From the NCBI RefSeq assembly GCF_014645015.1, contig NZ_BMLC01000005.1, forward strand, positions 1 through 64,000: a stretch of DNA of 64,000 nucleotides. Reading direction: 5' to 3'. The notes below the pieces were generated by a model. The model had not been told where the DNA came from. It saw only the letters and a list, made by a program, of their open reading frames with translations, and did not search any database. Origin of the DNA: Salinibacterium xinjiangense (GTDB lineage Bacteria; Actinomycetota; Actinomycetes; Actinomycetales; Microbacteriaceae). The translations under genes and the position numbers were made by a program. Shown here one piece after another: positions 23,762 through 51,618 of this stretch (positions are counted from its first letter, which is position 1; the number at the start of each line of letters is the position of its first letter).

Positions 23762-23765
23762 GCCG

Positions 23766-32167: not shown

Positions 32168-32182
32168 GATAGTTTCACTATC
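32168..32182 (+). promoter_or_regulatory. Inverted repeat before MerR gene
   Basis: GATAG-TTTCA-CTATC ends four bases before the MerR start codon. MerR proteins bind dyads in their own promoters. No ribosome binding site fits between the dyad and ATG 32187, so the transcript may be leaderless or start at the second ATG (32193). Confidence 0.45.
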
Positions 32183-32186
32183 GACT

Positions 32187-33726: not shown

Positions 33727-33729
33727 GGC

Positions 33730-35865: not shown

Positions 35866-36157
35866 AATCAGCCAACACATACCCAACACTTTGACTCGGA
35901 ATCGGCCCGAAATGCTCGGTAATCATCAGACCTGACGTCTCCCCGAAATGGCTCAGATCCCGCGCAATTCCTAGGTTTTCGGCATCGTTCGGTAGCTGGC
36001 AGAGTCTCCGATTCTGCGTCAGGGGGTCGCAGGTTCAAATCCTGTCAGCCCGACAATGTGCCCCGGATTTCTGCGGAAGTTCGGGGCTTTTCGTTGCGTT
36101 TTTGAGGGTCACGCTATACATCCAGCACTCACCCAACACTTTGAATTCCCGGGCGAA
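35866..36157 (+). repeat. Attachment-site-like repeat, copy 1 (both arms)
   Basis: A unit of about 290 bp matching the unit at 51326-51618 along its length. The left arm has two CCAACAC-type direct repeats (35872-35891). The core at 36020-36055 is a tRNA 3' end: TTCAAATCCTGTCAGCCCGA, containing the T-arm and an acceptor strand needing a C1-G72 pair, a tRNA-Pro trait. The right arm has another ACCCAACACTTTGA (36131-36144). Arm-core-arm organisation is that of a tyrosine-integrase attP or of a junction between tandem elements. No 5' half of the tRNA is present. Confidence 0.75.
36060..36091 (+). terminator. Rho-independent terminator inside att repeat 1
   Basis: GCCCCG (36060-36065) pairs with CGGGGC (36082-36087), followed by TTTT. 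The same hairpin occurs in repeat 3, directly after the tRNA-like core where a tRNA terminator would lie. Confidence 0.6.
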
Positions 36158-36398
36158 TGAAAGTCACGAAGAAGCGCGGAGAAAAGTGCGAACAAAAGGG
36201 GCTGCTGTCGCGGCACCAGCATGCTCACCAGGCTGGAGCCGATGACCTGCTTCCTGAATGAAGAGCGGCTGCTTCCTGCCAGAGTCGTCTACGCTGCTCG
36301 CGCGGAAAGCCGAAGGCAGTAGAGTTCGGGCGAACGAGCTTCACCGGAGCATTCGTCCGCAAGCAGCGCTCGTACACGACCGTGCAGACGGGACACTC

Positions 36399-37724
36399 AT
36401 GAACGACATCGGCACCTCGCTGCTCCGCATCGACATCGTCACCGGCCCATTGCTGTACGTCGTGCTGGGTCTTGCGACCGTCCAGCTGCTCTACCTTCTC
36501 GTGCGCGCCCCGACCAGGGTCTGGATTGTGACGGTCGTGATCGCCGTTGCCGCTGGGGTCGGGGTCGCTGGCATGACCTGGTTCGTGGTCGTGACGGTCG
36601 TCGATGCTTTCGGGATGTCGCCTGGTTTGGTGAGCTTCCTCTGGTTTGCCGCAACGTGTTCGGCGATAGCCCTGGCGTTGGCAAATCTGTGGCGTTCGCG
36701 CCGGCGTCGTAAAATCGTGGCTGTAGCATCCGTGCTGCTTTTTCTGGTGTCTGGGACATTAGCGATCAATGCGAGCTTCGGGCTGAACCGCACGCTGGGC
36801 TCGCTTTTCGGTGTGACGATGGCAGCGGCGGTCTCGCTACCGGCCACGAGTACGCCCCCGGAGACAGGCCCGAGTGCGCCCCCAAAGACCGGCCCGCTCT
36901 ACCAGAGCTGGGTAGCTCCGGCCGATCTCCCCGCGCAGGGCACGACCGGCAGCCAAGTGATCCCGAACACGGTTTCGGGATTCACCTCACGGCCGGCTGG
37001 GATCTATCTGCCGCCCGCGGCATTCGTTGCCAATGCGCCTGCGTTGCCGCTGGTCATCCTCCTCATGGGGCAGCCGGGTAACCCCGATCCGTCGTTCATC
37101 GCCGCGACCCTCGACCGGGATGCCGCCGCCCACGATGGTCTCGCACCGATCGTCATCGTCGCCGACCAACTCGGCGACCCGGCCAGCGACCCGCTGTGCC
37201 TGGACACTCCGAATTACGGCAAGGCTGAAACGTTCATCACCCAGGACGTCGTGAACTGGGCAGTGTCGAACCTGAACATCATCAAGGACCCGAGGTATTG
37301 GACCATTGCCGGGTATTCCAACGGCGGACAGTGCGCCATTTCTTTCGCAGCCAAGCACCCCGACTTGTTCTCTAACGTCGTCGACATCTCCGGCGAGGAA
37401 TTCGCTGGATCAGAGAGCGAAGAGGCGACACTCGCCGACGTCTTCCTCGGGGACCAGGCCGCCTACGACGCGATCAAACCCCTCAACCTGCTCGCCGCGA
37501 GGAAATTCATCGACACGGTCGCCGTCTTCACCGTCGGGTCCAACGACACAGGATTCATCCCCGGACAGCAGCGGATGGCGGCCGCAGCGACGGCCGCCGG
37601 CATGACGGTCACCTATTGGGAATCGCCCGACGGCGGGCACGTCCTTCCCGCGCTCACCGACGGCCTCGACGAGGCCTTCGTCGTGCTCTACCCACGGCTT
37701 GGGCTCGCACCAGCAACCGGTTGA
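36399..37724 (+). CDS. Membrane-anchored esterase-like alpha/beta hydrolase
   Basis: A 441-residue protein. Residues 1-165 contain four to five membrane segments with a basic loop (RSRRRRK). A Pro/Thr-rich linker (ATSTPPETGPSAPPKTGP) then leads to an extracytoplasmic hydrolase domain. The nucleophile motif is GYSNGGQCA, with a likely acid in GSNDTGF and histidine in PDGGHVLPAL. This fits the putative-esterase family (esterase D / Ag85-like). ATG 36399 was chosen because the membrane region starts there. It is the first gene of the cassette after att repeat 1. The substrate is unknown, possibly a cell-envelope ester. Confidence 0.75.
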   Translation: MNDIGTSLLRIDIVTGPLLYVVLGLATVQLLYLLVRAPTRVWIVTVVIAVAAGVGVAGMTWFVVVTVVDAFGMSPGLVSFLWFAATCSAIALALANLWRSRRRRKIVAVASVLLFLVSGTLAINASFGLNRTLGSLFGVTMAAAVSLPATSTPPETGPSAPPKTGPLYQSWVAPADLPAQGTTGSQVIPNTVSGFTSRPAGIYLPPAAFVANAPALPLVILLMGQPGNPDPSFIAATLDRDAAAHDGLAPIVIVADQLGDPASDPLCLDTPNYGKAETFITQDVVNWAVSNLNIIKDPRYWTIAGYSNGGQCAISFAAKHPDLFSNVVDISGEEFAGSESEEATLADVFLGDQAAYDAIKPLNLLAARKFIDTVAVFTVGSNDTGFIPGQQRMAAAATAAGMTVTYWESPDGGHVLPALTDGLDEAFVVLYPRLGLAPATG

Positions 37725-38197
37725 CCCGATACCAACTGCCTGTTGGCACCCTTGTTGCACCATTCCTCCGCGCCCGCCCCGCGCGCAAAAATGTCACATG
37801 GGACGGCCCGGGTTCAACATTGGCCCTGGTCAGCGAGTGACAAGCATCGGAGTGGGATTCAGCATTGGGTCTGGATCGAAATCTCAAGCGTGACAATCCG
37901 ACGTCCTGACGCCATTGCGACATCGGAGCGACGAGCACCGCCTGAGAGTGCAGGCGATAGTGGATCAACAGGTGTCTAACCATTACGAACAGCGTCATAG
38001 AAATATCCATGGCGCACGCGGAACGCGCAGCGCCCAATCCCGGCCTGGCCGCGGCGTATCGAGGGCAGGCTATCAACGCGGCGGTAAAGGGGGCAGTTGC
38101 TGAGGATCCGGTCTTTGGCGGACGTCTTTGGATGTCTCGATCCGGAGAGTACGGTTCACGATGTTATGACCGATGAATCGTAGGACGAGACAACGTC
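37725..38197. other. No supported gene
   Basis: About 470 bases after the esterase gene. The frames are short and unlike any known protein. No repeat or terminator stands out. Confidence 0.45.
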
Positions 38198-38638
38198 GTG
38201 GCAGAAGCATTTGGACTCGTAATCGCCACTGTTTGGGAATGGGACGGGGTTGTTCACGCAATGGCGTCGGGGCCGCATTCCGACCGGTGGATGACGTCGG
38301 CTGCTCGAGTGCTCACAGCCGAGGCGGGGTTTCGGCTCATCGTCGGCGAGAGCTTCGAGGGACTCGACCGCGTCTGGCTGTATCTCGGTCGCAGGGAAAT
38401 CAATTCTCGTGGGGACGCGAACCGAGATGATCTGCGCAATCACCACAACTATTCCGGCTGTGAGGTACGGCCCGGATGGCCAGCAAAAGGCAACTTCGAT
38501 GTTTCCGTTCCTTGGCGGATTACCCTGGAAATCGGAATGCGGCTCAACCCCAGAACGACCCGGGAGGAGGGCAAGGAGATTGTCGAGCAGAGATGCCTGT
38601 GCCGGGCACTAACGCGCTTGGGGGAGTCGCGTCTGTAG
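38198..38638 (+). CDS. Hypothetical protein
   Basis: A 146-residue open frame starting at GTG 38198. I recognise no family. It is hydrophilic with several tryptophans (VWEWDGVVH, WRITLEIGMRLNP) and no signal peptide or membrane segment. It converges on the small HTH gene 14 bases downstream. Overlapping frames on the other strand are shorter. It may be real, or a chance frame in high-GC DNA. Confidence 0.35.
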   Translation: MAEAFGLVIATVWEWDGVVHAMASGPHSDRWMTSAARVLTAEAGFRLIVGESFEGLDRVWLYLGRREINSRGDANRDDLRNHHNYSGCEVRPGWPAKGNFDVSVPWRITLEIGMRLNPRTTREEGKEIVEQRCLCRALTRLGESRL

Positions 38639-38652
38639 CGGCGTCGGCCGGA

Positions 38653-38949
38653 TTAGGTTGCGTCGGCCTGAGCGGACCGCATATGTGCCGGCCACAGCGC
38701 TACAGCCAGGCCGATTTCGAGCTTGGCGATCGTTTCCAACTCCGGCCAGGACCGTCCGTCGACGATCGAAAAAATCGTGGAGTGATCGACCCCGCAGCGA
38801 GCCGCCGCCTCCCGGAGGCTCAGGCCCTGAAGTTCCGACCGGAGATTCAACGCAAATCGGCGTGCAACCTCCGCTACCGCATCGTCGGTCGGAGTCTCTG
38901 GCCAGTTCGGCACACGCTCGCGAGGGGACAGCTTCTTCGGACGGGGCAT
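38653..38949 (-). CDS. Small XRE-type HTH protein
   Basis: A 98-residue protein. A basic N-terminus (MPRPKKLSPRERVPNW) is followed by a helix-turn-helix of the Cro/C1 type (LSLREAAARCGVDHSTIFSI) and a helix ELETIAKLEIGLAVALW. It has the size of an antitoxin or element-borne repressor and lies inside the first att-bounded cassette. No partner gene is recognised. Confidence 0.7.
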   Translation of the reverse strand: MPRPKKLSPRERVPNWPETPTDDAVAEVARRFALNLRSELQGLSLREAAARCGVDHSTIFSIVDGRSWPELETIAKLEIGLAVALWPAHMRSAQADAT

Positions 38950-39674
38950 AATCAGAGCGTAAAGGACACGGGTCGACCCGAGGCTTCACCATCAGAGACG
39001 AGAACCTCGGCGCAAACGGGAGGATGCGAATCTGTAGGTCAGGTCGCCTCAGGTCACCGAAACCCTCAGCAATCTCGAACGGACTGCTGCATCCAGCTTT
39101 TCCGCTCAATCATCGCAGCACAAAAAGCGAACGGCTGCGACGCCTCAGCAACTATCCGCTACTCGATCGTATGACGGGCACTCAGAACGCTTTGGACTCC
39201 ACATGGCCGACCAGTCACGGTCGCCGAATACCGCAGGCTCGAGACGAGGCTGGCGCCACGATTTGCCGTCGCGTGCTCGAAAACGCTATTTGTGCGACTG
39301 AAGATTAAGCTCATGAGACGCCTCGTATCCCACGCTTGGTCTCAAGGGGTCATCGCAACACCTGGGGTGCGCGATGAACATCCGTCTTTCGAGGACCAGA
39401 CGTTCTGATAACGCAACACCGCTGCACGCGTCGGACTGAAATGGTGCACCTCAACGAGGACGGTTGCTCGCGCGCCGCAGGGTGAAACGACGCTCGACCG
39501 ACCCTATTCACCAGAAAAAGCGGCCGGGGGTCGGGGACGGTCTTAGGAGCATTCTTTGGTTCACGCGCCGTGGTCAGAAGCAAGAGGAGTCAGAGCCTGA
39601 CGCTACCCACGTCGATCGCGCCGGGCATATAGTCGAGAACGTGTAATTATGCTCATCTCTTCGAGAGGAACTCC
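38950..39674. other. No supported gene; decayed sequence
   Basis: About 720 bases with only short conflicting frames and somewhat lower GC than its surroundings. No protein family or RNA recognised. Confidence 0.45.
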
Positions 39675-40730
39675 ATGAAGGCACTCGTTTATAAAGGTCC
39701 AGGCCAGAAGTCGTGGGAAGAGGTGCCCAACCCGGCGATCCTGCAACCGACCGACATCATCGTGAAGATCGACACAACGACGATCTGCGGCACCGACCTG
39801 CACATCCTCAAAGGCCACGTTCCCACTGTCGAGGTGGGAAGGATCCTCGGCCACGAGGGCGTGGGCACGGTCACTGAGCTCGGGGCCGCCGTCACGAGCC
39901 TCAAGTTGGGCGACCAGGTCATCCTTTCCTGCGTCTCCGCCTGCGGACACTGCAGCTACTGCAAGCTAGGGGTCTATTCGCACTGTCTTGCCGACGAGGG
40001 GGCATCCGGCATCGGCTGGATTTTGGGCCATCTCATCGACGGGACGCAGGCCGAATTCGTGCGGGTGCCCTTCGCGGAGACGTCGGTCTACCTGCTGCCC
40101 GAGAATGTCACCCCCCAGCAGGGAACTGTGCTCTCGGACATCCTGCCGACTGGGCACGAGATTGGTGTGAAGTACGGCAGGGTCAAGGCTGGCGATGTCG
40201 TCGCTGTCGTCGGTGCGGGTCCGGTCGGACTCGCGGCGATTGCCACCGCGGGTCTCTATGGCCCCTCGCGGATTATTGCGATCGATCTCGACGCCAATCG
40301 AGTGGAGGAGGCCAGAAAATTCGGCGCCACCGACACGGTCGTCTCGAGTGATGCTGACTGGAAGAAGCAGGTACTTGCGATGACCGACGGGCTCGGGGTC
40401 GACGTCGCGATAGAGGCCGTCGGTATTCCGCAGACTTTCACGATGTGTCTCGACATCGTGCGTCCCGCTGGCGCCGTGGCAAACGTCGGAGTGCACAGCA
40501 AGTCGGTCGATTTCCCGTTGCAGGACTTGTGGATCTCGAACATCAATATCAGCATGGGTCTCGTCAACACCGACACACTCGATATTCTCCTCAAGCTCGT
40601 TGCGCAGAAAAAGATCGTGGCCGAGAACTTCGTCAGCCACACCTTCGAACTCGGAGACATTATCGAGGCCTACGACGTGTTTGGGCGTGCCGCCGAAACA
40701 AAAGCCCTCAAGGTTCTTCTCAACGCATAG
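39675..40730 (+). CDS. Zinc-dependent alcohol dehydrogenase
   Basis: A 351-residue medium-chain dehydrogenase. Catalytic zinc residues are C38 (TTTICGTDLH) and H60-E61 (ILGHEGVG). The structural zinc loop has C90, C93, C96 and C104 (CGHCSYCKLGVYSHC). The Rossmann glycine motif is VVGAGPVGLAAIATA. The sequence looks like secondary-alcohol or broad-range ADHs of actinobacteria. ATG 39675 follows GAGAGGAAC. It is the last gene before the second att-like repeat and stands alone. Confidence 0.9.
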   Translation: MKALVYKGPGQKSWEEVPNPAILQPTDIIVKIDTTTICGTDLHILKGHVPTVEVGRILGHEGVGTVTELGAAVTSLKLGDQVILSCVSACGHCSYCKLGVYSHCLADEGASGIGWILGHLIDGTQAEFVRVPFAETSVYLLPENVTPQQGTVLSDILPTGHEIGVKYGRVKAGDVVAVVGAGPVGLAAIATAGLYGPSRIIAIDLDANRVEEARKFGATDTVVSSDADWKKQVLAMTDGLGVDVAIEAVGIPQTFTMCLDIVRPAGAVANVGVHSKSVDFPLQDLWISNINISMGLVNTDTLDILLKLVAQKKIVAENFVSHTFELGDIIEAYDVFGRAAETKALKVLLNA

Positions 40731-41100
40731 GTCCCTTCCCGATCCGGCCCAGCGTCCGGCGGGGTCTGCCCCGAAGTGCGCGGGATCTGTCCCGCCGCTC
40801 GCGCGGTTGTCCTCTGACGTGCCCCACGATTTAGTTTCTTCGGTGGGTGTGGAGTTTCGGGCCTTGCTGGGAGGCTGTGAAACATGTTGATACCGTGCTC
40901 TGCCGAGTCGCAGCTAGCGCGGTCGCGCTGGGCAGGGACAGCAGACCTCTGTCACCACCACTGCCGCTGAGGTCGGGATCAGTCAGTCGTGCCTTCGTGA
41001 CCAGACCCGTCAGGACCAGGCGAATCGGGGTGAGCTTCTCGGAGTCATAACGGTCGAGAACGCGGAAGTTGCCCGCCGACAGAAGTATCTGCGCGGAGTG
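40731..41100. other. No gene; contains a lone IS end
   Basis: Between the dehydrogenase gene and att repeat 2. The only recognisable sequence is the IS3-type terminus at 40817. Remaining frames are short. Confidence 0.5.
40817..40860 (+). repeat. Solo IS3-type inverted repeat
   Basis: TGACGTGCCCCACGATTTAG matches the left end of the IS at 4150 at most positions, and GGTGTGGAGTTT continues the resemblance. No transposase follows. It is the scar of a deleted relative. Confidence 0.6.
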
Positions 41101-41293
41101 ATTCAGCCAACACTTACCCAACACTTTGACCCGGAATTGCCCCGGAATGTTCGGTAATCGTCAGACCTGGTGTCTTTCCCAGACGCCTTTACTTCCGCAT
41201 GATTCCGGGGTTCTCGGCACTACTCGGTGCTTGACGGACCCGTCGATTCGAAGACAGGGGGTCACAGGTTCAAATCCTGTCAGCCCGACAATG
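41101..41293 (+). repeat. Attachment-site-like repeat, copy 2 (left arm and core)
   Basis: It shares the left arm (two CCAACACTT-type repeats at 41106-41125) and core (41255-41290) with copies 1 and 3, with one core difference (GTCACAGG for GTCGCAGG). Similarity stops within a few bases after the core, so the right arm and terminator hairpin are missing. This looks like an attL/attR-type junction between two cassettes. Confidence 0.7.
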
Positions 41294-41709
41294 GGGCTGT
41301 TCAAAGAACTGCCTGAAAGAGAAACGCTCCGGAGAGATTTCGGGCGCGTTTCGTGTTTTCTGGACCAGAATCGGTCCCGGGGAGGCAGCTGCATCGCCCT
41401 TCGACACGATCTGCTCGTTGACTGCTGGGCGCGCCCGGGTCGGTGTGCATCACATCGTTCGGTGTGCGGTGAGTTTTACCCTCTCGGGCGGTGTTGCAGC
41501 CGGGCTGACGGGACAGGAGGCAGGCGGAATCCGTCGACTCCGCCTGCCGCAACACTGCAGAATCACGAGCAGCTAGCAGTATTTCTGCAGAAACATGTCG
41601 CCGCGCCTTACCCCGTGCGAATGATCCGCAAACCGGTTCGCACGGCGCTCGCGGCAGGAAGACGGGCAGGGGATTCTGGAGGGCTGGTGACCCTGATAAA
41701 ATTGGCATT
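41294..41709. other. No supported gene
   Basis: About 415 bases between att repeat 2 and the second alcohol dehydrogenase. Short frames on both strands overlap, and nothing is recognised. Confidence 0.45.
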
Positions 41710-42717
41710 GTGTTCGCCATTGAGCTAGACGCTCCTTCCCCGCTGTCTGAACATCCACTCAACTGGCGCGAGATCGCCACCCCCGAGCCCGGCCCAGGGC
41801 AGCTGCTGATCAAAATAGCGGCGTGCGGGGTGTGCCGCTCGAATCTGCACATGATCGAGGGCGATTGGATTGATGGGGGAGTGCCTGCCATCAGCCCGAT
41901 CATCCCCGGGCACGAGGCGACCGGCACGGTAGCCGCGATTGGTGCGGGCGTGACGACATTCCAGATCGGTGATCGGGTTGGTGTGCAGCCGCTGTGGTGG
42001 ACGTGCGAGGAGTGCGAGTTCTGCCTCTCCGGCCGCGAGGAACTCTGCCATGAGCGCAAGATCACGGGTGAGCACGTAAACGGCGCGTACGCGGAGTTCA
42101 TGCTCTCGTATGCGGCGCACAGCTATCACGTGCCTGAGTCCATCGACCTGGTTGATGCCGCTCCGCTGTTCTGCCCGGGAATCACCGCGTTCAGCGCCGT
42201 TTCAAAGCTCGACCTCGGGCCCGGAAAGCGTGTCGGAGTGTTCGGCATCGGTGGCGTTGGCCATATGGCCCTGCAGTTTGCGGTACTCACCGGAGCCGAT
42301 GTCATCGCAGTGGGTCGCAGCGCTGGTCACCTCGAGGTAGCGAAAGAGCTCGGTGCAACGGAGGTGGTGGACTCGACGAAGGTCGACCCGGGTGAATACC
42401 TGGAAGACTCTCTCGACGCGGTGCTCACCTTCGCGCCCTCCGACGTGGTGAACGCCGGCGCGCTCCGGGCGCTCAAGTGGGGCGGCACTCTCGTCACTGG
42501 TGTTCCCCTGACGTTCGAGGGGTTCCCTTTCAACAAGAGTCAGACTGTGATCGGTACGATCCTCGGCAACCGCGCGCAGATGAACGAGGTGCTGCGTCTC
42601 GCCGCGGACGGGAAGATCCGCACCGTGGTCGACCGCTTCCCGATGGCCGACGCAGCCGAGGTCCTTCAGAAGCTCACCAGCGGAGAGTTGCGCTCGCGCG
42701 CCGTGCTCGAGAACTGA
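41710..42717 (+). CDS. Zinc-dependent alcohol dehydrogenase
   Basis: A 335-residue medium-chain dehydrogenase of the AdhA type. Catalytic zinc residues are C39 or C42 within ACGVCRSNLH, and H68-E69 (IPGHEATG). The structural zinc motif is CEECEFCLSGREELC. The coenzyme motif is GVFGIGGVGHMALQFA. The conserved TD before LH is SN here (N45), a change next to the catalytic site. The start is GTG 41710. Convergent with fhs and first gene of the second cassette, it may oxidise a polyol or primary alcohol for the ketose genes beyond. Confidence 0.88.
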   Translation: MFAIELDAPSPLSEHPLNWREIATPEPGPGQLLIKIAACGVCRSNLHMIEGDWIDGGVPAISPIIPGHEATGTVAAIGAGVTTFQIGDRVGVQPLWWTCEECEFCLSGREELCHERKITGEHVNGAYAEFMLSYAAHSYHVPESIDLVDAAPLFCPGITAFSAVSKLDLGPGKRVGVFGIGGVGHMALQFAVLTGADVIAVGRSAGHLEVAKELGATEVVDSTKVDPGEYLEDSLDAVLTFAPSDVVNAGALRALKWGGTLVTGVPLTFEGFPFNKSQTVIGTILGNRAQMNEVLRLAADGKIRTVVDRFPMADAAEVLQKLTSGELRSRAVLEN

Positions 42718-42862
42718 TTTTCACCCAGCCCCGTCAGGTGGCCGAAAACAGCATGGGCATCTCGCACGGCTGAGTGAACGCGCGGCATCACAGCCGTATC
42801 CGGGCACCCCGCACGACGTCACCGATCGTCCAAACGGGCATCTGCCTGACAGCATCTGCCTA

Positions 42863-44554
42863 TCAGGACAACCCGACGATCTCGCCGTTCTCATCGATAT
42901 CGATGTGTTCGGCCGCTGGTGCAGACGAGAGACCGGGCATGGTGCGCATGTCGCCACAGATGGGGTAGATGAATCCGGCCCCGATTGACGCACGTACCTC
43001 ACGCACCGGCAGTCGCCACCCGGTCGGTGCTCCCTTGATGCTGGGGTCGGCCGACAGGGACAGGTGTGTCTTGGCGATGCATACCGGCAGGTTGCCGAAG
43101 CCCGCCTGCTCGTATCTGTCGAGTTGCCGCGCGGCTAGCGGTGAGATGTCTACCCCGTCGGCGCCGTACATCTCGCGCGCGATCAGATCGATCTTGTCGA
43201 CCAGGGAAAGCTCGTCGGGATAGAGCCGGTGGTAGCTCGACGGCTCAGTGCAGGCCTCGGCTACAGCCTCGGCCAGTTCGGCCGCACCGCGACCGCCCTC
43301 GGTGAAGTGGTGACTGATGGCCACTCGTACACCCTCCTCCGCCGCGATGTCCATGATCGCCCGGTGCTCACTGTCATGGTCGGTGGGAAACGCATTCACG
43401 GCAATGACCGGTGTGACTCCGTGCTTGCGGATGTTGGCGATCTGCTGGCGGAGGTTCGCCGCCCCGGCGAAGATGTCATCGGGGTTCTCGGCCAGCATCT
43501 CCGCTGGCAGCGGTCGACCGGCGACCACCCGGTACTTGCTCGAGTGGGTTTTCAGGTCACGCACCGTCGCGACGATGACGGCAGCATCCGGTGTCAGCCC
43601 GGACGCGCGGCACTTGATGTTGAAGAACTTTTCCGCGCCGATATCTGCACCGAACCCCGCCTCGGTGATGAGGTAGTCACCCGCATGGATGCCGATCAGG
43701 TCGGCGACGACGGAGGAGTTACCGGTGGCGATGTTGCCGAACGGACCCGCGTGCACGAGAACTGGCGTCTGCTCCACGGTCTGCATCAGGTTCGGCTTGA
43801 TGGCATCCTTCAGCATCACCGTCATGGCGCCGGCCACCTTGAGCGTCTCGGCCGTCACCGGATCGCCATCGCCGTTGTAGCCGACGACGATTCTTCCCAT
43901 CCGCTCGCGGAGATCACGCAGTGATGTGCACAGCGACAACAGCGCCATCACCTCGCTGGCTGCGGAGATGTCGAAACCGGTCTGCAGCGGATTGCCGTCA
44001 TCAGGAGTGCCGAGCCCGGTGATGATGTTGCGCAGTTCGCGGTCGTTGACGTCGAGGACACGCCGCCAGGTGATCTGATGGGGATCCAACCCGAGACGGT
44101 TTCCCTTGTGGATATGGTTACCGATCATCGCCGACAGAAGGTTGTGGGCCGCGGTCACGGCGTGCATGTCGCCGGTCAGGTGCAGGTTGAGTGCCTCCAT
44201 CGGCACCACCTGGGCGTAGCCACCACCAGCGGCGCCACCCTTGATACCGAACACCGGTCCCATCGACGGCTGCCGGATGGCGACGATCCCGAGCTTGTCG
44301 ATCTGCCGAAAGCCCTGGCCGAGCCCGATCGCGGTGGTCGTCTTACCTGACCCAAGTGGTGTGGGCGTGATTGCGCTGACGACGACATACTTGGCCCGGG
44401 GACGATCACGCAGCTCATCAATCGCGCCGAGGGAGATCTTCGCTGCCGCGTTTCCGTAGGGTTCAAGCAGGTGTGCACCGATGCCCATGTCGGCTGCCAC
44501 CTCTGTCAGCGGACGACGGGTCGCAGCACGGGAAATAGCGAGATCCGAGGGCAT
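42863..44554 (-). CDS. fhs: Formate-tetrahydrofolate ligase
   Basis: A 563-residue ATP-dependent ligase making 10-formyl-tetrahydrofolate from formate. The N-terminus MPSDLAISRAA is the family start. The ATP motif TPTPLGSGKTTT is at about residues 63-74, and GGAAGGGYAQVVPMEALNLH and DFDVSAA-like blocks follow. Length is normal. An AGGAGG at 44592-44597 lies 37 bases upstream of ATG 44554, too far for that start, and no other site is evident. It is the last gene on the minus strand, about 200 bases after the SDR gene. Confidence 0.93.
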   Translation of the reverse strand: MPSDLAISRAATRRPLTEVAADMGIGAHLLEPYGNAAAKISLGAIDELRDRPRAKYVVVSAITPTPLGSGKTTTAIGLGQGFRQIDKLGIVAIRQPSMGPVFGIKGGAAGGGYAQVVPMEALNLHLTGDMHAVTAAHNLLSAMIGNHIHKGNRLGLDPHQITWRRVLDVNDRELRNIITGLGTPDDGNPLQTGFDISAASEVMALLSLCTSLRDLRERMGRIVVGYNGDGDPVTAETLKVAGAMTVMLKDAIKPNLMQTVEQTPVLVHAGPFGNIATGNSSVVADLIGIHAGDYLITEAGFGADIGAEKFFNIKCRASGLTPDAAVIVATVRDLKTHSSKYRVVAGRPLPAEMLAENPDDIFAGAANLRQQIANIRKHGVTPVIAVNAFPTDHDSEHRAIMDIAAEEGVRVAISHHFTEGGRGAAELAEAVAEACTEPSSYHRLYPDELSLVDKIDLIAREMYGADGVDISPLAARQLDRYEQAGFGNLPVCIAKTHLSLSADPSIKGAPTGWRLPVREVRASIGAGFIYPICGDMRTMPGLSSAPAAEHIDIDENGEIVGLS

Positions 44555-44763
44555 GGCCGCGCCGCTTGGTCGAGATGGCTTGAGAATGATGCCTCCTGAG
44601 TTTTAACCGCCTGCAGCGCAGCTGACTCGGTGGGGTGGTGGTTTCACGCGGCTGTAAGCGCCACCACTATTCTCTCAAACTCGATCGGGTTGAGCGCAGC
44701 GACGCGGCTCAGCTGATCGGTGCGGTGTCTGATCCCTGTGATGCGCCGGGCGGTACCTGTTGC

Positions 44764-45621
44764 TCAGATGCTGCGGTGGTCGCGCACGGCCAACTCGAGG
44801 GCTTCGAGACCGGGTGCGAGGGCAGCATCCACCGCCATCGGATCGGTGATGTTGAGCTGCTGCATCTGCCGGCGATCGCCCGGTGCGGTGTTTATTTCGT
44901 GCTCTCCAGCTTCCAGAGCAGCTATCAGGTCGGTGATGACGTCGCCCAGCGATCGACGTTCCCACCCGAGATCGGCACCGGCGTTCTGCGAGGTCATCAT
45001 CGCCGTCTCGGTGGCACCGGGGTAGACCGTCGCGACATGCACGCCAGTGCCAATCAACTCACGGCGAAGAGATTCGCCGAACCGGGCAAGGCCTGACTTC
45101 GTGGCCGCATAGACGGAGTAGAACGGCATACCGACCAGCGCAATCCCGCTGGCAATGTTCAGAAGGATGCTCCCTCGGCCAGTTCCGCTCTGACGAAGAG
45201 CGGGAAGCAGGGCCTTGGTGAGCAGAATCGGGGCAGTGAGGTTCAAAGTGATCATGGAGTGGACATCCGCATCGCTGGTCAATTCGAGCCGCCCCGCGCG
45301 AACATTGCCGGCGTTGTTTACCAGCAGATCAATCGTGTCCCAGGATGCGACCGCCTGCACAATCCGCTCGGCTGCACCGGGCTGAGTGAGGTCTTCGACC
45401 AGAATTTCGGATGTTCCGCCAGCAGAGGTCACGAGCCCGGCCGTTTCCGTGAGCGTGGTCTGCTGTCGCCCGACGAGCAGCAAGTGACCCCCGCGCCGAC
45501 CGAATTCAAGCGCGAGTGCCCGGCCAATGCCCTGCCCTGCGCCCGTGATGATCCCGCGGCGGTTGGTGAGATCAAGGGCCGTGAGATTCGTAGCGGTGAG
45601 ATCGGGAGTCGTTGAATGCAT
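44764..45621 (-). CDS. Short-chain dehydrogenase/reductase
   Basis: A 285-residue classical SDR. TGAGQGIGRALALEFG is the coenzyme motif, NNAGN the structural motif, and the catalytic Ser, Tyr and Lys occur in NIASGIALVGMPFYSVYAAT plus K. ATG 45621 was chosen with GAAAGAAG upstream; a longer frame has no support. The C-terminal 60 residues are less typical. It sits between the broken IclR regulator and fhs. A polyol or keto-sugar substrate is likely. Confidence 0.88.
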   Translation of the reverse strand: MHSTTPDLTATNLTALDLTNRRGIITGAGQGIGRALALEFGRRGGHLLLVGRQQTTLTETAGLVTSAGGTSEILVEDLTQPGAAERIVQAVASWDTIDLLVNNAGNVRAGRLELTSDADVHSMITLNLTAPILLTKALLPALRQSGTGRGSILLNIASGIALVGMPFYSVYAATKSGLARFGESLRRELIGTGVHVATVYPGATETAMMTSQNAGADLGWERRSLGDVITDLIAALEAGEHEINTAPGDRRQMQQLNITDPMAVDAALAPGLEALELAVRDHRSI

Positions 45622-45823
45622 TGGAGCACGCTTCTTTCCGTTGATTTCGGCAGGATGGAAGCGGCCCGAAGTTCCGGGCCGTCGCCACGGACGCTGATTG
45701 AAGACAACCGGGCACACCGACAGAAATTCCGCAGCTGTCCCGCAGCCCGCCGATGTGGCCGGCGCGGCTGCGCACCGGAACCTGCGCTCACCTCACGAGC
45801 GTGACCGGGCAACCCGAATCACA

Positions 45824-46223
45824 TCACCGTCGTCCGACGGTCGATCGATTTCTTAGTTTTTTGGTGATCACGTGTGCCTGTTCCAGCAGCAGCCTGCTCA
45901 GTTCTGGCCTGCGTGAAGTGCTGCAGCGTGACTCGATCCCGGTGAGGCTGAGCGCCCATGCGGGGCGGCCGTACTCGTCGAACATTGCTGCTCCCATACC
46001 CCAGCCGCCTTCCACAATGAGGCCCGGGTTGACCGCGTAGCCGTGTTGCCGCGTCTCGGGCGATGCGCTGTCGCAAGACGGGAATCGCATGCGATGCGCC
46101 CCACTCAGCCTCCAACAGATCCCATGCCAGATAGGCCTCGGCCTGGGCGAGGGAGAGAAAGTAGAGGATTGCCAGCCCGGCTGAGGCCATACCAAGCGGG
46201 AACCGAACACCCTCGTGAAGCAC
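45824..46223 (-). pseudogene. IclR-family regulator, C-terminal domain only
   Basis: The effector domain of an IclR regulator in two frames. LHEGVRFPLGMASAGLAILY and EAYLAWDLLEAEWGASHAIP lie in one frame. After a frame change near 46055 the other reads HGYAVNPGLIVEGGWGMGAA and RPAWALSLTGIESR, with further damage before the end. The HTH domain is missing. It probably once controlled the DhaK or SDR genes beside it. Confidence 0.8.
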
Positions 46224-46408
46224 GACCGACCCAACGGGAAAGCTACCTCCTCACGCTGCCGCGCGTTTTGCGTGCGGCGTGGAGATTCCACCGCGTCATC
46301 GAGCATCCGTCGCATCGGTTGGCCCGGTGCATTACCGGCGTGGTGACGGCCCGGCTCGAGACGCACAGAGGGCGCTAAACACCGTCGGCGGCGTAATCGG
46401 ACTCTTCT

Positions 46409-47404
46409 CTAGAAGATGCGCACAGCCACCTCGGCTGGAGCCTCGAGCAGTCGTTCGATCTCGTCATCCAGCCGAACCAGCGTGAGCGAGGCACCCGCCA
46501 TATCGAGAGACGTGCAGTACTCACCGACATAGCTTCGCCCCACTGTGATTCCCTGGGCTGCGAGCTTTTCGTGGGCGATTCCGTACAGGATATACAGCTC
46601 ACTGGTGGGGGTTCCTCCGAGACCGTTAATCATCAGCGCCACCCGGTCGCCGCTGGCGAAAGGAAGGTCAGGAACGACAGCTCCCAGCAGCTCATCGATG
46701 ATCTCGTTGGCCGGCATCCACTTGGCCCGTCGTCGTCCGGGTTCTCCGTGGATTCCCACCCCGATCTCGATCTCGTCGTCGGCCAGTTCGAACAGCGGCG
46801 AACCCTTGGACGGGGGTGTGCATGCGGTCAGAGCGATGCCCATCGTGCGGGTGACAGAGTTGACTTTTTCGCCGATCCGGACCAACTCGTCGAGGTCCGC
46901 TCCGGTTTCAGCGGCTGCGCCGACGGCTTTCATCACGAAGAAGTTTCCGGCCACCCCGCGGCGTCCAACCGTGTAGGTGGAGTCCTCGACCGACACATCG
47001 TCATTGATGAACAGCGTTTTCACCTTCACGCCGTCGGCTTCACTCATTTCCTGGGCCATATCGAACGCCATCCGGTCGCCGGTGTAGTTGTTCACCAGCA
47101 GCAAAACGCCCTTGGGGGAGGCCAGCAACTTCGTCGTCTCGTAGACGTAGTCCATCGGCGGTGCGGCAAAGATGTCACCAGGGCAGGCTGCGTCGAGCAT
47201 TCCCTTACCCACGGTCATCACATGGGCCGGCTCGTGGCCGGAGCCCGACCCCTGGATGATTGTCACCTTGTCGTCCCGAGGCGAATCGATGCGGTGGATG
47301 AGGTTGTACTTCGGAACGTAGACAAGGGTTGCCGGGTTTGCGAGTGCAATACCTTTCAACATCTCGGGAACGAATTGCTGCGGGTCGTTGATGAACTTTT
47401 TCAT
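46409..47404 (-). CDS. dhaK: Dihydroxyacetone kinase subunit DhaK-like
   Basis: A 331-residue ketose-binding kinase subunit. The nucleotide-independent substrate site is visible: GSGSGHEPAHVMTVG (H57, H61), and H219 in GVGIHGEPGRRR corresponds to the histidine that binds the substrate carbonyl covalently. ATG 47404 was chosen, since upstream extension lacks similarity. DhaL follows as a separate gene on the upstream side, and no DhaM phosphocarrier is present. Related split kinases use dihydroxyacetone or tetrose ketoses such as erythrulose. The aldolase and dehydrogenases beside it suit a ketose pathway. Confidence 0.88.
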   Translation of the reverse strand: MKKFINDPQQFVPEMLKGIALANPATLVYVPKYNLIHRIDSPRDDKVTIIQGSGSGHEPAHVMTVGKGMLDAACPGDIFAAPPMDYVYETTKLLASPKGVLLLVNNYTGDRMAFDMAQEMSEADGVKVKTLFINDDVSVEDSTYTVGRRGVAGNFFVMKAVGAAAETGADLDELVRIGEKVNSVTRTMGIALTACTPPSKGSPLFELADDEIEIGVGIHGEPGRRRAKWMPANEIIDELLGAVVPDLPFASGDRVALMINGLGGTPTSELYILYGIAHEKLAAQGITVGRSYVGEYCTSLDMAGASLTLVRLDDEIERLLEAPAEVAVRIF

Positions 47405-47453
47405 TGACTTCTCCAATTGGCGGGTGGTGAGATGGAAAATCTTGAGGGGTGCC

Positions 47454-48098
47454 TCACACGGGTTGGCGGCTACTCCAGGTTTCTGCAAGCCGTTCGGCCA
47501 ATACTGCGACGGCGAGCGCTCCTGCATCTGCAGACCCGATACTGCGTTCGCCGCTGTAGCTGGCCCGCCCGCGCCTCGCCTGCATTGTGCTCGTATGTTC
47601 GGCAGCGGCGCGAGCCGCCGTCGCCATTGCCCGCACAGAATCCTCCACGGACTCGCCGGCATCGTGCGCCCGCTCCAGGGCGTCTACGGCAGGCGCGAGT
47701 GCGTCGAGCAGCGTCTTGTCACCGATATCCGAGTTTCCCCGTTTCTTGATGCCTTCGATACTCGAGCGCAGTGCGGTAACGACATCGCCGACCGCCACGT
47801 TTTCCATGCCCTTGAGCTGAGTCCCCGCCCGCAAGAAGGCGGTTCCCCAGATCGGCCCGGACGTGCCCCCGATTCGACTCGTGATTTCGATGGCCACCTT
47901 CAACAGGAACGTGCCCGAATCTTCACGGTCGAACTGGTCCCAGTTCGCAAGCACCTGCTCGAAACCGCGGGCAAGGGAAAATCCGAAATCCCCATCGCCG
48001 ACGACCGAGTCGAGATCTCCGAAATATTTCTCATTCTCGACGCAGGTCGTCGCGATCGTGCGGACGACGAATTCGGTCGTGTCAAGACTGCTGCTCAT
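47454..48098 (-). CDS. dhaL: Dihydroxyacetone kinase subunit DhaL-like
   Basis: A 214-residue all-helical nucleotide-binding subunit. Magnesium ligands D30, D35 and D37 are present in LDSVVGDGDFGFSLARG; the usual GDGDHG histidine is phenylalanine. GGTSGPIWGTAFLR and NSDIGDKTLLDALAPAVDAL are the other conserved blocks. The C-terminus RASYSGERSIGSADAGALAV is standard. It overlaps the HAD gene by four bases and precedes dhaK by 49 bases. It transfers phosphate from nucleotide to the ketose held by DhaK. Confidence 0.88.
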   Translation of the reverse strand: MSSSLDTTEFVVRTIATTCVENEKYFGDLDSVVGDGDFGFSLARGFEQVLANWDQFDREDSGTFLLKVAIEITSRIGGTSGPIWGTAFLRAGTQLKGMENVAVGDVVTALRSSIEGIKKRGNSDIGDKTLLDALAPAVDALERAHDAGESVEDSVRAMATAARAAAEHTSTMQARRGRASYSGERSIGSADAGALAVAVLAERLAETWSSRQPV

Positions 48099-48922
48099 AG
48101 CTGTTTCCTCTCGTGTCCATCGGAGCGTTCCGGTTCGAAGGCACCAGGTGATGCTCCCGCCAGAACTGCATCGATGTCTGAAATTGTGATGTAGGCCTGT
48201 GGATGCACCCCGGCGGCGTCAACCAGCACAGCGGTGACTTCGCCATCGGGTTCACCAAGGGAAGTGACAACGAGGGATGCGCCGGCGAAATCTTCCTCAC
48301 GCGTGTAGCCGCTGACCGTGACGACAGTCGAGATCCCGGCTGCGAGTGCGGCCCGGAGCCCATTGGCGCTGTCTTCGATGACAACCGCATCGTCGGCAGT
48401 AATGCCGAGTTGATCAAGGGCGAGCAGATAAATGTCCGGTGCCGGCTTTTTTGCCGCGACCGAGTCGCCGGCAAAAATACGAAATTCCTGAGCAGTGGTT
48501 GTACCGACCACGTGTGTGAGCACTGCCCGGACGGATGCTTCCGCTGAGGTCGAGGCGATCGCCAGGGTGTAGCCCGCCGCAAGCGCTTCGTTCACAATCC
48601 GCGGAATACCCGGCCGTGCCGGGAGCGCCCCGGATGCGACGAGGCCAGTGTAAATTTCCGTCTTGCGCCGATGCCACTCTGCGACGAGTGCGGCCTGCCC
48701 CGCGGCATCCGTTGGCAAGCTGGCCAGGGAGACCAGGTCAGCGGTCAGCACGCTCGCCATCCGTTCCTTGCCCCCACCGATCAGCACTTTTTGGGCGTAA
48801 TCCGCATCGCTCCACTCCACCGGAATACCGAATTCCTTGAAGGTCTGGTTGAAGGCGGGAAGGTGCCCGAAACGCTCGGTGTCTGCGAGCACACCATCGC
48901 AGTCGAAAATCAGGGCAGGCAT
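48095..48922 (-). CDS. HAD-family phosphatase, CbbY/PGMB-like
   Basis: A 275-residue haloacid-dehalogenase-fold enzyme. The nucleophile and acid are D7 and D9 (LIFDCDGVLADTE). Motif II is in LAIASTSAEASV, motif III/IV in KKPAPDIYLLALDQLG and VVIEDSANGLRAALAAG. The N-terminal cap resembles CbbY and beta-phosphoglucomutase types. ATG 48922 begins one base after the aldolase stop, so the two are coupled. The last 30 residues are an unusual hydrophilic extension. It probably dephosphorylates or mutates a sugar phosphate from the aldolase-kinase pathway. Confidence 0.88.
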   Translation of the reverse strand: MPALIFDCDGVLADTERFGHLPAFNQTFKEFGIPVEWSDADYAQKVLIGGGKERMASVLTADLVSLASLPTDAAGQAALVAEWHRRKTEIYTGLVASGALPARPGIPRIVNEALAAGYTLAIASTSAEASVRAVLTHVVGTTTAQEFRIFAGDSVAAKKPAPDIYLLALDQLGITADDAVVIEDSANGLRAALAAGISTVVTVSGYTREEDFAGASLVVTSLGEPDGEVTAVLVDAAGVHPQAYITISDIDAVLAGASPGAFEPERSDGHERKQL

Positions 48923-48923
48923 C

Positions 48924-49784
48924 TCACCACGCCTTCCCGGCGCTGCCAAAGGTTGCTGCAAGCGCTGTTGTCATTTCCCTGACATCACTGGACACCGCGG
49001 CGAAGACAGTCGGCGGATCCCACTTGCCCGCGGCCCCTGATTTCTGCGTGTGTGACAGTGAGGACTGTAGGTAGAGCATCTTGAGTGCTGTCGAGATATT
49101 GACCTTCGCACAGCCACGGCTGATGAGGTCGCGAAACTGGTCATCAGTCATTCCGCTGCCCCCGTGTAACGCGATCGGCACAGGTTCGGCTCCAACCAGG
49201 GCCGTCACGCGGTCGAAATCGAGTACCGGCTCGGAGGCGTACACGCCATGTGCATTACCGATCGATGGTGCGAACACATCCACCCCGGTTCGGCGGATGA
49301 AGTCGAGCGAGACCTCAAGGGTCTGGCGTGCTCCGACCTCGTCAGAACCATGGCCGTCTTCGACTCCGGTAATGGCCTCGATTTCCCCTTCGACGTGAGC
49401 GCCATGGGCGCGAGCTTCAGCCACAACCTCAATCGTCTGCCGCAGATTTTCCTCCACCGGCAACTGGGACGCATCGAAGAGCACCGAGTTCCAGCCGAGA
49501 TCGAGACATTGGGTGATTACCGCACGATCCGGGCAGTGATCGAGGTGAAGAGTGACGGGAACGTCGACGTGCTCGGTCATGCTTTTCCACATCGCGAACA
49601 GCACCGGAGCGCCTATCGACTTCACGGTCTTGACCGAGGTCTGAACGATCAGTGGAGATCTCGCCTCCATCGCGCCCGCGAGCACCGATTGCAGGGTGAG
49701 ATCGTTCAGGATGTTGATTGCTGGCACGCCGTACCGCTCGCCAAAAGCCCGATCAACAATCTCCTTGAGTGAGACGACACCCAC
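48924..49784 (-). CDS. Class II aldolase (ketose-bisphosphate type)
   Basis: A 286-residue zinc aldolase of the FbaA/GatY family. HLDHCPD holds the catalytic D82 and zinc H83, and further zinc histidines are likely in SIGNAHGVY and ALHGGSGM. VNISTALKM is the phosphate-binding end. An E-rich loop (HVEGEIEAITGVEDG) is typical of the family. First gene of the aldolase-HAD-dhaL-dhaK run on the minus strand. Its natural reaction is cleavage of a ketose phosphate into a three-carbon phosphate and an aldehyde. Confidence 0.9.
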   Translation of the reverse strand: MGVVSLKEIVDRAFGERYGVPAINILNDLTLQSVLAGAMEARSPLIVQTSVKTVKSIGAPVLFAMWKSMTEHVDVPVTLHLDHCPDRAVITQCLDLGWNSVLFDASQLPVEENLRQTIEVVAEARAHGAHVEGEIEAITGVEDGHGSDEVGARQTLEVSLDFIRRTGVDVFAPSIGNAHGVYASEPVLDFDRVTALVGAEPVPIALHGGSGMTDDQFRDLISRGCAKVNISTALKMLYLQSSLSHTQKSGAAGKWDPPTVFAAVSSDVREMTTALAATFGSAGKAW

Positions 49785-49815
49785 ATTGGCCTCCGTAATT
49801 TGCGTACTTCCGAAC

Positions 49816-50673
49816 CTAGATCGCAGCTCGGACAGCGGCTATGGGGAGTTTCCCTACTGGATCCCCCGGATCGCCTCGGATGATACGAGCCGCAACTTCC
49901 GCCCGGCTGCGTGCGCCGGACTTGCGAAGAATTGTGCCGACGTGCTTCTCGACTGTCTTCGCTGAAATCCCGAGTTCCCGCGCGATGAGTTTGTCGGGCC
50001 AACCGCGCTCGAGGAATGTGGTCACCTGGAGTTCGCGGGTTGTCAGGCCCGGTATCTGCGCGGCTGTCGGCACGTTGAGTACGCGCGAATTCGCTATTGC
50101 AACCGCGGCATGAATTGCAAATAGCTCGAGAAGCTGCACGTCATCGGTATCAAAGCGACGGGAGGGGGCATCCCCGAACACGACACAGGCCCCGACGATG
50201 GCGGGTCCGAGACGAATTGGCACGCCGATAACCGCGCGGGAATATCGGAGGTCACTCGGTTGGATGTGGCCTCCGGGCACCAGCGAATACTGGTCAAATC
50301 CAATCGGCCCGCCCGCTCGCACGACGGCTCCGGTAACGCCCTCGTCAAGGGGGAAGACCTCGCCTGACCGGCATCCGACGTCGAGGTCCACTTCCTTGCG
50401 GTAGTGCCCCGCAGTGGCGTCGATCGTGCAGATCGATCCACTGTGACAGTGCAGCAACTCGACAGCATTGCGAAGGATGCGGCGCAAAAGCGGTTCGAGT
50501 GCAAACTCCCCGGCCAGATCATTCGCCAGCAGCGACAGGGTGGCAAGCTGACTGACTGGCTGAGGAGACTGTCCAATCCGAGCGTTATTGCCGAGAATCC
50601 GGGTGACTGCGGTGTGGTTGGTAGCCGCACCGGTGCCCTGGATCGGGTCTGATGCAAGCGACGAAATAGTCAT
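49816..50673 (-). CDS. GAF-domain LuxR-family regulator
   Basis: A 285-residue transcription factor. A GAF sensor occupies residues about 45-195 (LLRRILRNAVELLHCHSGSI, VPIRLGPAIVGACVVFGD). The C-terminal LuxR HTH is LTTRELQVTTFLERGWPDKL followed by ISAKTVEKHVGTILRK. ATG 50673 was chosen because AGGAAG lies seven bases upstream; an earlier ATG lacks a site. It lies 31 bases upstream of the aldolase operon on the same strand, so it likely activates it, and no receiver domain suggests direct sensing of a small molecule. Confidence 0.88.
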   Translation of the reverse strand: MTISSLASDPIQGTGAATNHTAVTRILGNNARIGQSPQPVSQLATLSLLANDLAGEFALEPLLRRILRNAVELLHCHSGSICTIDATAGHYRKEVDLDVGCRSGEVFPLDEGVTGAVVRAGGPIGFDQYSLVPGGHIQPSDLRYSRAVIGVPIRLGPAIVGACVVFGDAPSRRFDTDDVQLLELFAIHAAVAIANSRVLNVPTAAQIPGLTTRELQVTTFLERGWPDKLIARELGISAKTVEKHVGTILRKSGARSRAEVAARIIRGDPGDPVGKLPIAAVRAAI

Positions 50674-51026
50674 CGATATCTTCCTGCCTCGCGCCGGTGC
50701 GAAGTCCTTTTCCATCCTGTCCCAGACCGCGCCGAGGTGCGAGGGTTTCGGCTGTATTCACGGAGACATCAAGGAAAGGTGACATTCAGGCTTCACATTT
50801 CCCGCAGGGGACGTCCTGGGTGTCAAAGCTCACATCCGATCCCGAACCACCACACTTTTCATTGCCGCTGGCAGGGCCCAGTGATCAGCTAATACCTGGG
50901 CCGCGACGATCGATCTGGTCGATTGGCCCGCAACTAGGTGCCCTCGTGCACCCGGTTTCGTGTGGCCTCTACCGGTGATGCTGAACAGCCTCACCTGGGG
51001 TTTTATGCCGTCCGCATAGACCGTTT
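50674..51026. other. No supported gene
   Basis: About 350 bases between the LuxR gene start and an esterase remnant. It should hold the LuxR promoter, but no convincing boxes were found. Confidence 0.4.
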
Positions 51027-51325
51027 CTACGACATCAGCTGAGACCTGATGTTCCGCCCCGGGGTCAGAATGCCGTTGCGTTGCGCGAAATACTCCGCAG
51101 TCGCTGGTGCTGAGAGCATCCCGCCACCGCGGAGTGGTCCCCAGCGCCTGGCGGATTGGCCGCTGTATTTGACGAAAAAATCGCTGGTGCCGTGGAACAT
51201 GGTGACGGCCATTGGCGTGGATTCGTATCGGCCGCCGATGAAGTGTGCCGCGTCAGCTTGCGTTGCCGAGATCAGGCCGGCTCCGGCGATTTTGACCGGT
51301 CCAAGTGACTCTCGCCTCCGAGACG
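51027..51325 (-). pseudogene. PHB-depolymerase-like esterase fragment
   Basis: The frame reads GGRYESTPMAVTMFHGTSDF then FVKYSGQSARRWGPLRGG and ATAEYFAQRNGI. The FHG.SD...Y.G block is the segment before the catalytic acid in LpqC/PHB-depolymerase esterases. No nucleophile motif remains. It directly abuts att repeat 3, as though the gene was cut by element insertion or excision. Confidence 0.45.
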
Positions 51326-51618
51326 AATCAGCCAACACTTACCCAACACTTTGACCCCGAAATACCCCGAAATGCTCGGTAATCACCAGACCCGGTCTCT
51401 GCCAAAAATGCCTGAACTCCCGCATAATTCCGGGGTTTTCGGCATTGTTCGGTAGCTGGCAGAGTCCACGATTGTGAGTCAGGGGGTCGCAGGTTCAAAT
51501 CCTGTCAGCCTGACAATGTGCCCCGGATTTCTGCGGAAGTTCGGGGCTTTTTCATTGTGTTTTTCAGGTTCAGGGCTAAAACGCCGCATTTTGCTAACAC
51601 TTCGAATTCCCGAGCGAT
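51326..51618 (+). repeat. Attachment-site-like repeat, copy 3 (both arms)
   Basis: It matches copy 1 along about 290 bp. The left arm CCAACACTTA-CCCAACACTT is at 51332-51351. The core at 51480-51515 differs from copy 1 at one position (GCCTGACA for GCCCGACA). A right-arm sequence (GCTAACACTTCGAATTCCCG) ends near 51612. It marks the right border of the second cassette. Confidence 0.75.
51520..51552 (+). terminator. Rho-independent terminator inside att repeat 3
   Basis: GCCCCG pairs with CGGGGC across the same loop as in repeat 1, followed by TTTTT. It lies directly after the tRNA-like core. Confidence 0.6.

Follow-up and report, generated by a model that had tools for sequence, protein, structure and literature searches.

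Attachment-site junctions in Salinibacterium xinjiangense point to a stacked genomic island behind tRNA-Pro(GGG)

The first 64,000 nucleotides of contig NZ_BMLC01000005.1 of Salinibacterium xinjiangense (here called the window, at the start of contig C5) hold three long repeats, each with a copy of the 3' end of a tRNA-Pro gene. On their anatomy, the repeats are attachment-site junctions of one tyrosine-integrase family, and a stacked genomic island behind tRNA-Pro(GGG), built by that family, very probably explains the window. Synteny places the whole window inside one such island of at least 127 kb. The target tRNA lies on another contig, C3, together with an excisionase gene and an integrase gene (xis-int) that are likely the cognate pair for the sites in the window.

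Attachment junctions and their target

The three copies share one layout. A double repeat, CCAACACnnnCCCAACACTTTGA, forms the P arm from two CCAACAC-type repeats and is followed by about 120 nt of conserved sequence and then by the tRNA-Pro 3' end, or core (Table 1). Copies 1 and 3 continue past the core into a terminator-like hairpin and then a P' arm, and they aligned at 84% identity across 295 columns. Copy 2 aligned at 77% to copy 1 and 80% to copy 3 across 194 columns; its similarity ends at the end of the core, and both the shared terminator and the P' arm are absent. Relative to the 30-nt core of the host tRNA-Pro(GGG), copy 1 has no mismatch and copies 2 and 3 have one each. Whereas 16-25% of the 195-nt segment from P arm to core varies among the window copies, the P arms of copies 1 and 2 are intact. 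An earlier note on this DNA, made from its letters, had placed the cores where the alignment now puts them, had described copy 2 as keeping the left arm and core, and had likened the arms to arm sites of tyrosine integrases; each of these points held, and the arm-core-arm structure supports the last. The same note had copies 1 and 3 sharing both arms, which is right for the alignment as a whole, but while the P' arm of copy 1 is near intact, that of copy 3 is one degraded repeat.

Table 1. Features of the window (gene starts are approximate)
Feature	Position	Strand	Basis
Right part of unit 1, the tRNA-proximal element	1..35863		C3/C5 synteny with ten relatives; join inferred, gap size unknown
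Attachment junction copy 1 (P, core, terminator, P')	35864..36152	+	Alignment to copy 3 and C3 attL
P arm of copy 1, double arm-type repeat CCAACACATACCCAACACTTTGA	35872..35894	+	Exact pattern match
tRNA-Pro(GGG) 3' end, copy 1 core	36018..36054	+	Aligns to C3:317281-317317, end of ARAGORN tRNA-Pro
Terminator-like hairpin, also present after the real tRNA-Pro	36055..36091	+	Sequence
P' arm of copy 1, CCAGCACTCACCCAACACTTTGA	36122..36144	+	Pattern with 1 mismatch
Unit 2, predicted integrase-less cassette, P' (copy 1) to P (copy 2)	36145..41100		Arm patterns; no PF00589 on C5
Putative esterase (PF00756), 441 aa, unit 2	36399..37724	+	Pfam 2.7e-9; start approximate
HTH_3 protein, 98 aa, unit 2	38653..38949	-	79% nt twin at C3:341549-341836 in unit 1
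Zinc-type alcohol dehydrogenase, unit 2	39675..40730	+	86% orthologues by chromosomal flank in G024, G026
Attachment junction copy 2 (P and core only)	41099..41293	+	77-80% to copies 1 and 3 across 194 nt
P arm of copy 2	41107..41129	+	Exact pattern match
tRNA-Pro 3' end, copy 2 core	41255..41289	+	1 mismatch in 30-nt core
Unit 3, P at right end, no P' at left	41294..51323		Pfam and arm search
Attachment junction copy 3 (P, core, terminator, degraded P')	51324..51617	+	Alignment
P arm of copy 3	51332..51354	+	Exact pattern match
tRNA-Pro 3' end, copy 3 core	51478..51514	+	1 mismatch in 30-nt core
Degraded P' arm of copy 3	51594..51605	+	Single repeat, 2 mismatches

The repeats could instead be noncoding sequence dispersed in the ordinary way, or copies of a regulatory region that was duplicated; that several similar copies lie between genes, two of them having a hairpin, is what such a reading would expect. 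We rejected it on genome-wide searches for similarity and for the arm pattern. When copy 1 was searched against the genome (G000; 3,023,542 bp in 9 contigs), it matched copy 3 (E 1e-82), the tRNA-Pro locus (1e-41) and copy 2 (6e-36), and the three remaining matches covered 22-23 nt of T-arm sequence in tRNAs. A pattern search allowing as many as 3 mismatches placed the double arm repeat at five sites in 3.02 Mb, all at the three copies and the tRNA-Pro locus and all on the tRNA's strand; a reversed-pattern control gave none. Every copy lies behind one tRNA-Pro in one orientation, the core is the tRNA 3' end, and the empty and filled sites of relatives differ exactly there. The genome-wide spread that the earlier note had named as contrary to its proposal was not seen, the repeats being confined to one island, and we consider a dispersed repeat extremely improbable. 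A recent tandem duplication was also rejected because the window copies, at 75-84% identity among themselves and 69-78% to the copies of other species, diverge nearly as much from each other as from those species.

No tRNA gene was predicted in the window, a scan of it against Rfam gave no match, and no PF00589 match was found in it at E 1e-3. To the left of the cores, resemblance to a tRNA 5' half was no better than in shuffled sequence (46 to 405 of 500 shuffles were as good, depending on the copy), and a degenerate 5' half was rejected with even the best copy equalled by 46 of 500. The window thus lacks both an integrase gene and a tRNA 5' half, as had been supposed. A full tRNA-Pro, which the earlier note had advised seeking elsewhere in the genome, was found at C3:317243-317317. 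This intact tRNA-Pro(GGG) is followed by the same hairpin and then by a P' arm, CCAACATAAAACCAACACTTTGA, and copy 1 aligned to this attL at 88% across 136 positions. The tRNA 3' end is duplicated at the borders with the intact tRNA at one end, which is the arrangement of a tRNA-targeted island. Because the intact tRNA is followed by the same hairpin and P' arm, integration by this family would appear to replace the tRNA 3' end and terminator with the element's own.

How far the island extends was read from the chromosomal flank. The comparison set comprised 27 congeneric genomes, our own and 26 relatives. In relatives, tRNA-Pro is followed on the chromosome by a conserved block of an epimerase-like gene and its neighbours; among those relatives that were compared, identity for the three genes of the block was 75-94%. 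With a threshold of E 1e-60, 11 of the 27 genomes have the epimerase-like gene. In all ten other genomes that have it, it lies on the contig of tRNA-Pro and downstream; the remaining 16 gave no match at that threshold. The distance from tRNA-Pro to flank was 1.4 kb in G013, 3.0 in G001, 7.3 in G024, 11.1 in G015, 12.9 in G014, 17.2 in G012, 17.8 in G006, 30.8 in G026, 39.2 in G011 and 69.2 in G008. In S. xinjiangense, C3 terminates 26 kb beyond tRNA-Pro, C5 begins with the window, and the epimerase-like orthologue lies at C5:101159-102127, so that tRNA and flank are at least 126.8 kb apart, to which an unsequenced gap must be added. With the flank at 101 kb of C5, the entire window would therefore fall within the island. 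No repeat common to the end of C3 and the start of C5 was found. The gene infC was rejected as the right flank, as in the relatives compared (for example, G004, G005, G024 and G026) it lies about 50 kb away on the other side of the tRNA.

Other tRNA fragments were noted near this and a second site. Directly behind the P' arm of attL lies the 3' part of a tRNA-Met-like gene, reaching from the anticodon arm to the acceptor end and having its own hairpin (L020:3525-3574; G000:C3:317524-317573), and it looks as if an element of a tRNA-Met site had also landed there. On contig C1, an intact tRNA-Met and, 4.2 kb off, a second copy of its 3' part at which no tRNA was predicted (L007:1493-1535 and L006:1493-1567, around G000:C1:668089 and C1:672331) possibly mark a second small tRNA island in G000. 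Finally, G016 (L122:660-850), G024 (L072), G008 (L073) and G017 (L078) each have a second, altered tRNA-Pro-like sequence roughly 100 bp ahead of the intact gene.

The candidate integrase and the states of the site

The integrase that the earlier note had expected outside the window has a candidate on C3. Seven PF00589 proteins of G000 were among the matches listed, none of them on C5, and Int_A, an open frame of 400 aa at C3:327854-329056, lies 10.3 kb from the tRNA. By eye, its catalytic motifs look complete. A 66-aa protein encoded ahead of Int_A passed the excisionase model TIGR01764 (30.7 bits, cut-off 28.8). At 80% identity or more, Int_A was present in two of the 27 genomes, G000 and G011, both of which carry the arms; the next relatives reached at most 48%. 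The G011 homologue is 83% identical to Int_A of C3 and is one of three PF00589 matches in G011. Each of the 27 genomes has two or more such matches.

Relatives of Int_A were also sought in 398 genomes of the same bacterial family, drawn from a larger group, with at most four candidate places scored in each. Int_A matched at E 1e-100 in 11, nine of them outside the genus (46-51% identity), and in six of those nine a tRNA lies about 400 bp upstream (Lys in three; Ile, Thr and Pro(GGG) in one each). The Pro(GGG) relative (G086, 46%) carries the arm motif in 13 of 14 letters, a score that none of 2000 shuffles equalled, at an offset of 68 compared with 76-77 in G000 and G011. At the five relatives with other tRNAs, and at six attL sites of other element types, the motif reached 6-8 of 14 letters, no better than shuffles. 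The Int_A branch is linked to CCAACAC-type arms by association only. No attachment (att) site was found within about 1 kb before the integrase homologue of G016.

The tRNA-Pro site occurs in several states across the genus. Empty sites, which the earlier note had suggested looking for in related strains, were recognized when G013 was compared with G011 and G014. In G013, the tRNA and core are followed by ATATGGAAAAAGG, and the same flank follows the right-hand core of G011 and, as a close variant with small differences, that of G014. A complete 28.8-kb element occupies G011, with P' beside the tRNA, P beside the right core and Int_A included. In G006, a 3.9-kb element lies between core repeats, with P' kept and the P arm and core damaged, and a matching flank follows the tRNA directly in G015 and G024. 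The element of G014, also between core repeats, is 2.4 kb and has lost P'. Two other element families, with different arms, also use tRNA-Pro, with GGTCCCC arms in G008, G016, G017 and G023 and GTTGCAC arms in G004 and G022. In G008 and G023, the tRNA is followed by an unrelated GGTCCCC-arm element and only beyond it by a P' arm belonging to the family of the window; because this foreign element separates the two, stacking is directly evidenced there. Identity between the P' side of G008 and the tRNA-adjacent P' sides of G011 and G012 is 97.6-98.8%. In G012 (L066:9600-9870), we note a terminator-P' segment that is fused at its tRNA end to unrelated sequence and has lost the core.

Attachment DNA of the window's family is more widespread than Int_A. 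With up to 2 mismatches, the arms were found in 8 of 27 genomes, or nine with G008, whose P' arm is beyond that tolerance, and Int_A at 80% identity is absent from seven of the nine. Among those seven, G023 and G026 have only 30-35% relatives of Int_A, at other loci. There are two tyrosine recombinases in G006 and two in G014, and all four pass NF001399, a XerC/XerD-type model, at 282-354 bits against a cut-off of 279; Int_A scores 54. PF00239 gave no match in G006 or G014 and was present in 7 of 9 genomes tested. A search at E up to 1 found no trace of xis or int in the small element of G006 or in that of G014. Elsewhere, that search returned genes of G000, G011 and G016, excisionases of another element type in G008, G016, G017 and G023, and otherwise weak matches only. 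Both small elements carry Imm26-like genes: that of G014 matched PF15428 at 4.2e-5, just above the cut-off, and that of G006 is 65% identical to it.

Defence-type genes were noted at tRNA-Pro in three further places, namely, a DrmD-like helicase with a TmtA-like neighbour in G012 (L066:2459-8532), a CBASS-type cyclase in G005 (L062:7503-8468) and a PDC-S35 match in G011 (L064:6927-7865). A scan of named-species genomes for the exact arm pattern gave Salinibacterium sp. PAMC 21357 (Microbacteriaceae), Salinibacterium sp. SWN248 and one planctomycete contig. We read the planctomycete match as chance because nothing else of the attachment site is present. The exact pattern had no match in IMG/VR.

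Units of the stack and how they may have arisen

We propose that elements of one tyrosine-integrase family entered successively at the tRNA-Pro 3' end. Each would have arrived with a tRNA 3' end of its own and a terminator to replace the existing one. Every insertion would in this way have restored the tRNA gene and moved earlier elements further downstream, and the P-core-P' junctions would be the seams left between them. Unit 1 would span from attL on C3 to copy 1, at least 61.8 kb, with its left part (attL, xis and int) on C3. It contains Int_A, sugar-related genes, insertion sequence transposases and a Gabija-like pair adjoining attL (L020:3655-7502; G000:C3:317654-321501), in which GajB (635 aa) and GajA (647 aa) were both matched over their full length. 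No conjugation genes were found in the 29 of its 56 called proteins that were scanned with Pfam.

Unit 2, of about 5 kb, keeps both arms, P' at 36122 and P at 41107, as a cis-mobilizable element (CIME) does. Its three called genes encode the esterase-like protein, the HTH_3 protein and the alcohol dehydrogenase, with none for integration or transfer, and the HTH_3 gene is shared with unit 1. PF00239 had no match in C5:1-64000, and no int or xis remnant was found in the window at E up to 1. Because both arms are kept and no recombinase is present, unit 2 fits a cassette of the cis-mobilizable type, its mobility being predicted from anatomy. In principle, the integrase of C3 could act on copies 1 and 2 and excise unit 2, and the resulting circle would join the P side of copy 2 to the P' side of copy 1. 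Unit 3 encodes a second alcohol dehydrogenase, formate-tetrahydrofolate ligase, SDR, Dak1, Dak2, HAD and class II aldolase proteins and a GAF-LuxR regulator. It keeps one of the two arms of a CIME, copy 2 having no shared terminator or P' arm. Since an arm or an end is lacking, unit 3 and the 50 kb past copy 3 are probably immobile.

The earlier note had read the window as two integrase-less, cis-mobilisable cassettes in tandem. The first, from copy 1 to copy 2, has P' and P and stands, but the second, from copy 2 to copy 3, has no P'. The tandem picture likewise survives only in part, as the window appears to be a slice of a larger stack with the integrase in the tRNA-proximal unit and a distal 50 kb without a right end. 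Fixation of both cassettes at one place in all relatives, which the same note had named as contrary, was not observed: with 11 candidate places scored per genome, no block of units 2-3 (15 kb) was found in the 26 relatives, and besides att segments there were only matches of about single-gene length (17 of 26 genomes had some).

Several observations weigh against this reading. The join of C3 and C5 is unsequenced, and further contigs could sit between them. A search of C5 from 51.6 to 116 kb found no additional core. Int_A lies 10.3 kb from attL in G000 and 9.0 kb in G011 compared with about 400 bp in relatives, and the stretches between attL and Int_A in G000 and G011 have no nucleotide similarity to each other. 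Moreover, the alcohol dehydrogenase of unit 2 has 86% orthologues beside the chromosomal flank in G024 and G026 and 75-77% nucleotide matches on other contigs of G002, G018 and G021; part of unit 2 may thus be older resident DNA rather than cargo. We note separately that in both G011 (L065:7642-16850) and G000 (L020:3430-13654), the xis-int genes sit 9-10 kb from attL behind unrelated genes.

Granting stacking, the integrase-less units could be decayed leftovers, locked in place and with no integrase now using the sites of the window, and we give this an even chance. The P' arm of copy 3 is degraded, as are the P arm and core of G006; G014 has no P' arm, the inner junction of G012 has no core, and no right end was found past copy 3. 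Moreover, G006 and G014 hold only XerC/XerD-type tyrosine recombinases and no PF00239 match. The damage in copy 3, G006, G012 and G014 fits functional loss over time. Decay sits less well with the features that persist despite 16-25% divergence, namely, intact P arms in copies 1 and 2 and, in copy 1, an intact core and a P' arm that is nearly so. It also sits less well with Int_A of the same island, whose 400-aa reading frame is open.

Alternatively, Int_A-type integrases acting in cis or in trans may mobilise unit 2 and the small elements of relatives, which would spread independently; we regard this as possible but doubtful. The elements of 3.9 kb in G006 and 2.4 kb in G014 do reside in genomes with only XerC/XerD-type tyrosine recombinases, and Int_A is missing from most genomes with attachment DNA of the family. 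However, the small elements' own sites are damaged, no identical cassette was seen in two contexts, and, with 11 candidate places scored per genome, none of the 26 relatives was found to contain unit 2 as a block. The decay of att sites in relatives points to remnants as much as to active cassettes.

Known tandem islands and significance

Stacking behind a tRNA is a known mode of genomic-island growth, and its anatomy is unusually clear here. In the account of CIMEs and tandem accretion in the ICESt1 family of Streptococcus thermophilus, elements without integration genes keep their att sites (PMC5704250). The stack described here resembles that account in having att-bearing units without integration genes stacked by an integrase carrier at one site, and unit 2 fits the CIME description. 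It differs in its actinobacterial integrase branch at tRNA-Pro, in mobility that is predicted from sequence and in a carrier, unit 1, whose scanned proteins include no conjugation genes. The ssrA islands of Dehalococcoides stand in tandem, 16 with and 15 without an integration module, and carry metabolic cargo (PMC3146451). They too are tandem islands marked by a repeat of an RNA-gene 3' end, but they use ssrA and a serine recombinase rather than tRNA-Pro, arm-type repeats and a tyrosine integrase (PMC3146451). In "Candidatus Methylopumilus", an additive flexible island has 20-bp tRNA-Lys repeats, and the same source covers tycheposons (PMC10872708). There as here, repeats of a tRNA 3' end mark a variable island with metabolic genes; compared by description, the tRNA and the attachment arms differ (PMC10872708). 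A further comparison is with the islands of the Int_A relatives in the same bacterial family. They share the order tRNA, hairpin, xis and int, and the one at tRNA-Pro also shares the arm motif, but their xis-int genes lie beside the tRNA rather than 9-10 kb off, as in G000 and G011. Among the matches listed from open-licence papers, we found no treatment of a Salinibacterium tRNA-Pro island. What is added here is the host group, an integrase branch with its arm motif and a series of states in one genus.

Perhaps, a pool of small cassettes lacking an integrase is common to Salinibacterium species; such cassettes would enter tRNA-Pro with a borrowed Int_A-type integrase and outlast it, such that a genome without a mobile integrase could still gain and keep immunity-like, defence and metabolic cassettes. 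We consider this unlikely on present evidence. The site nonetheless offers a clear case of an island enlarged by stacking behind a single tRNA. The genus shows this site in empty, single, complete and integrase-less form, a candidate integrase is at hand, and the case names tRNA-Pro as a hotspot of defence and metabolic genes. With that range of states and a candidate integrase linked to an arm motif, the borrowing of an integrase by neighbouring cassettes becomes directly testable in environmental bacteria.

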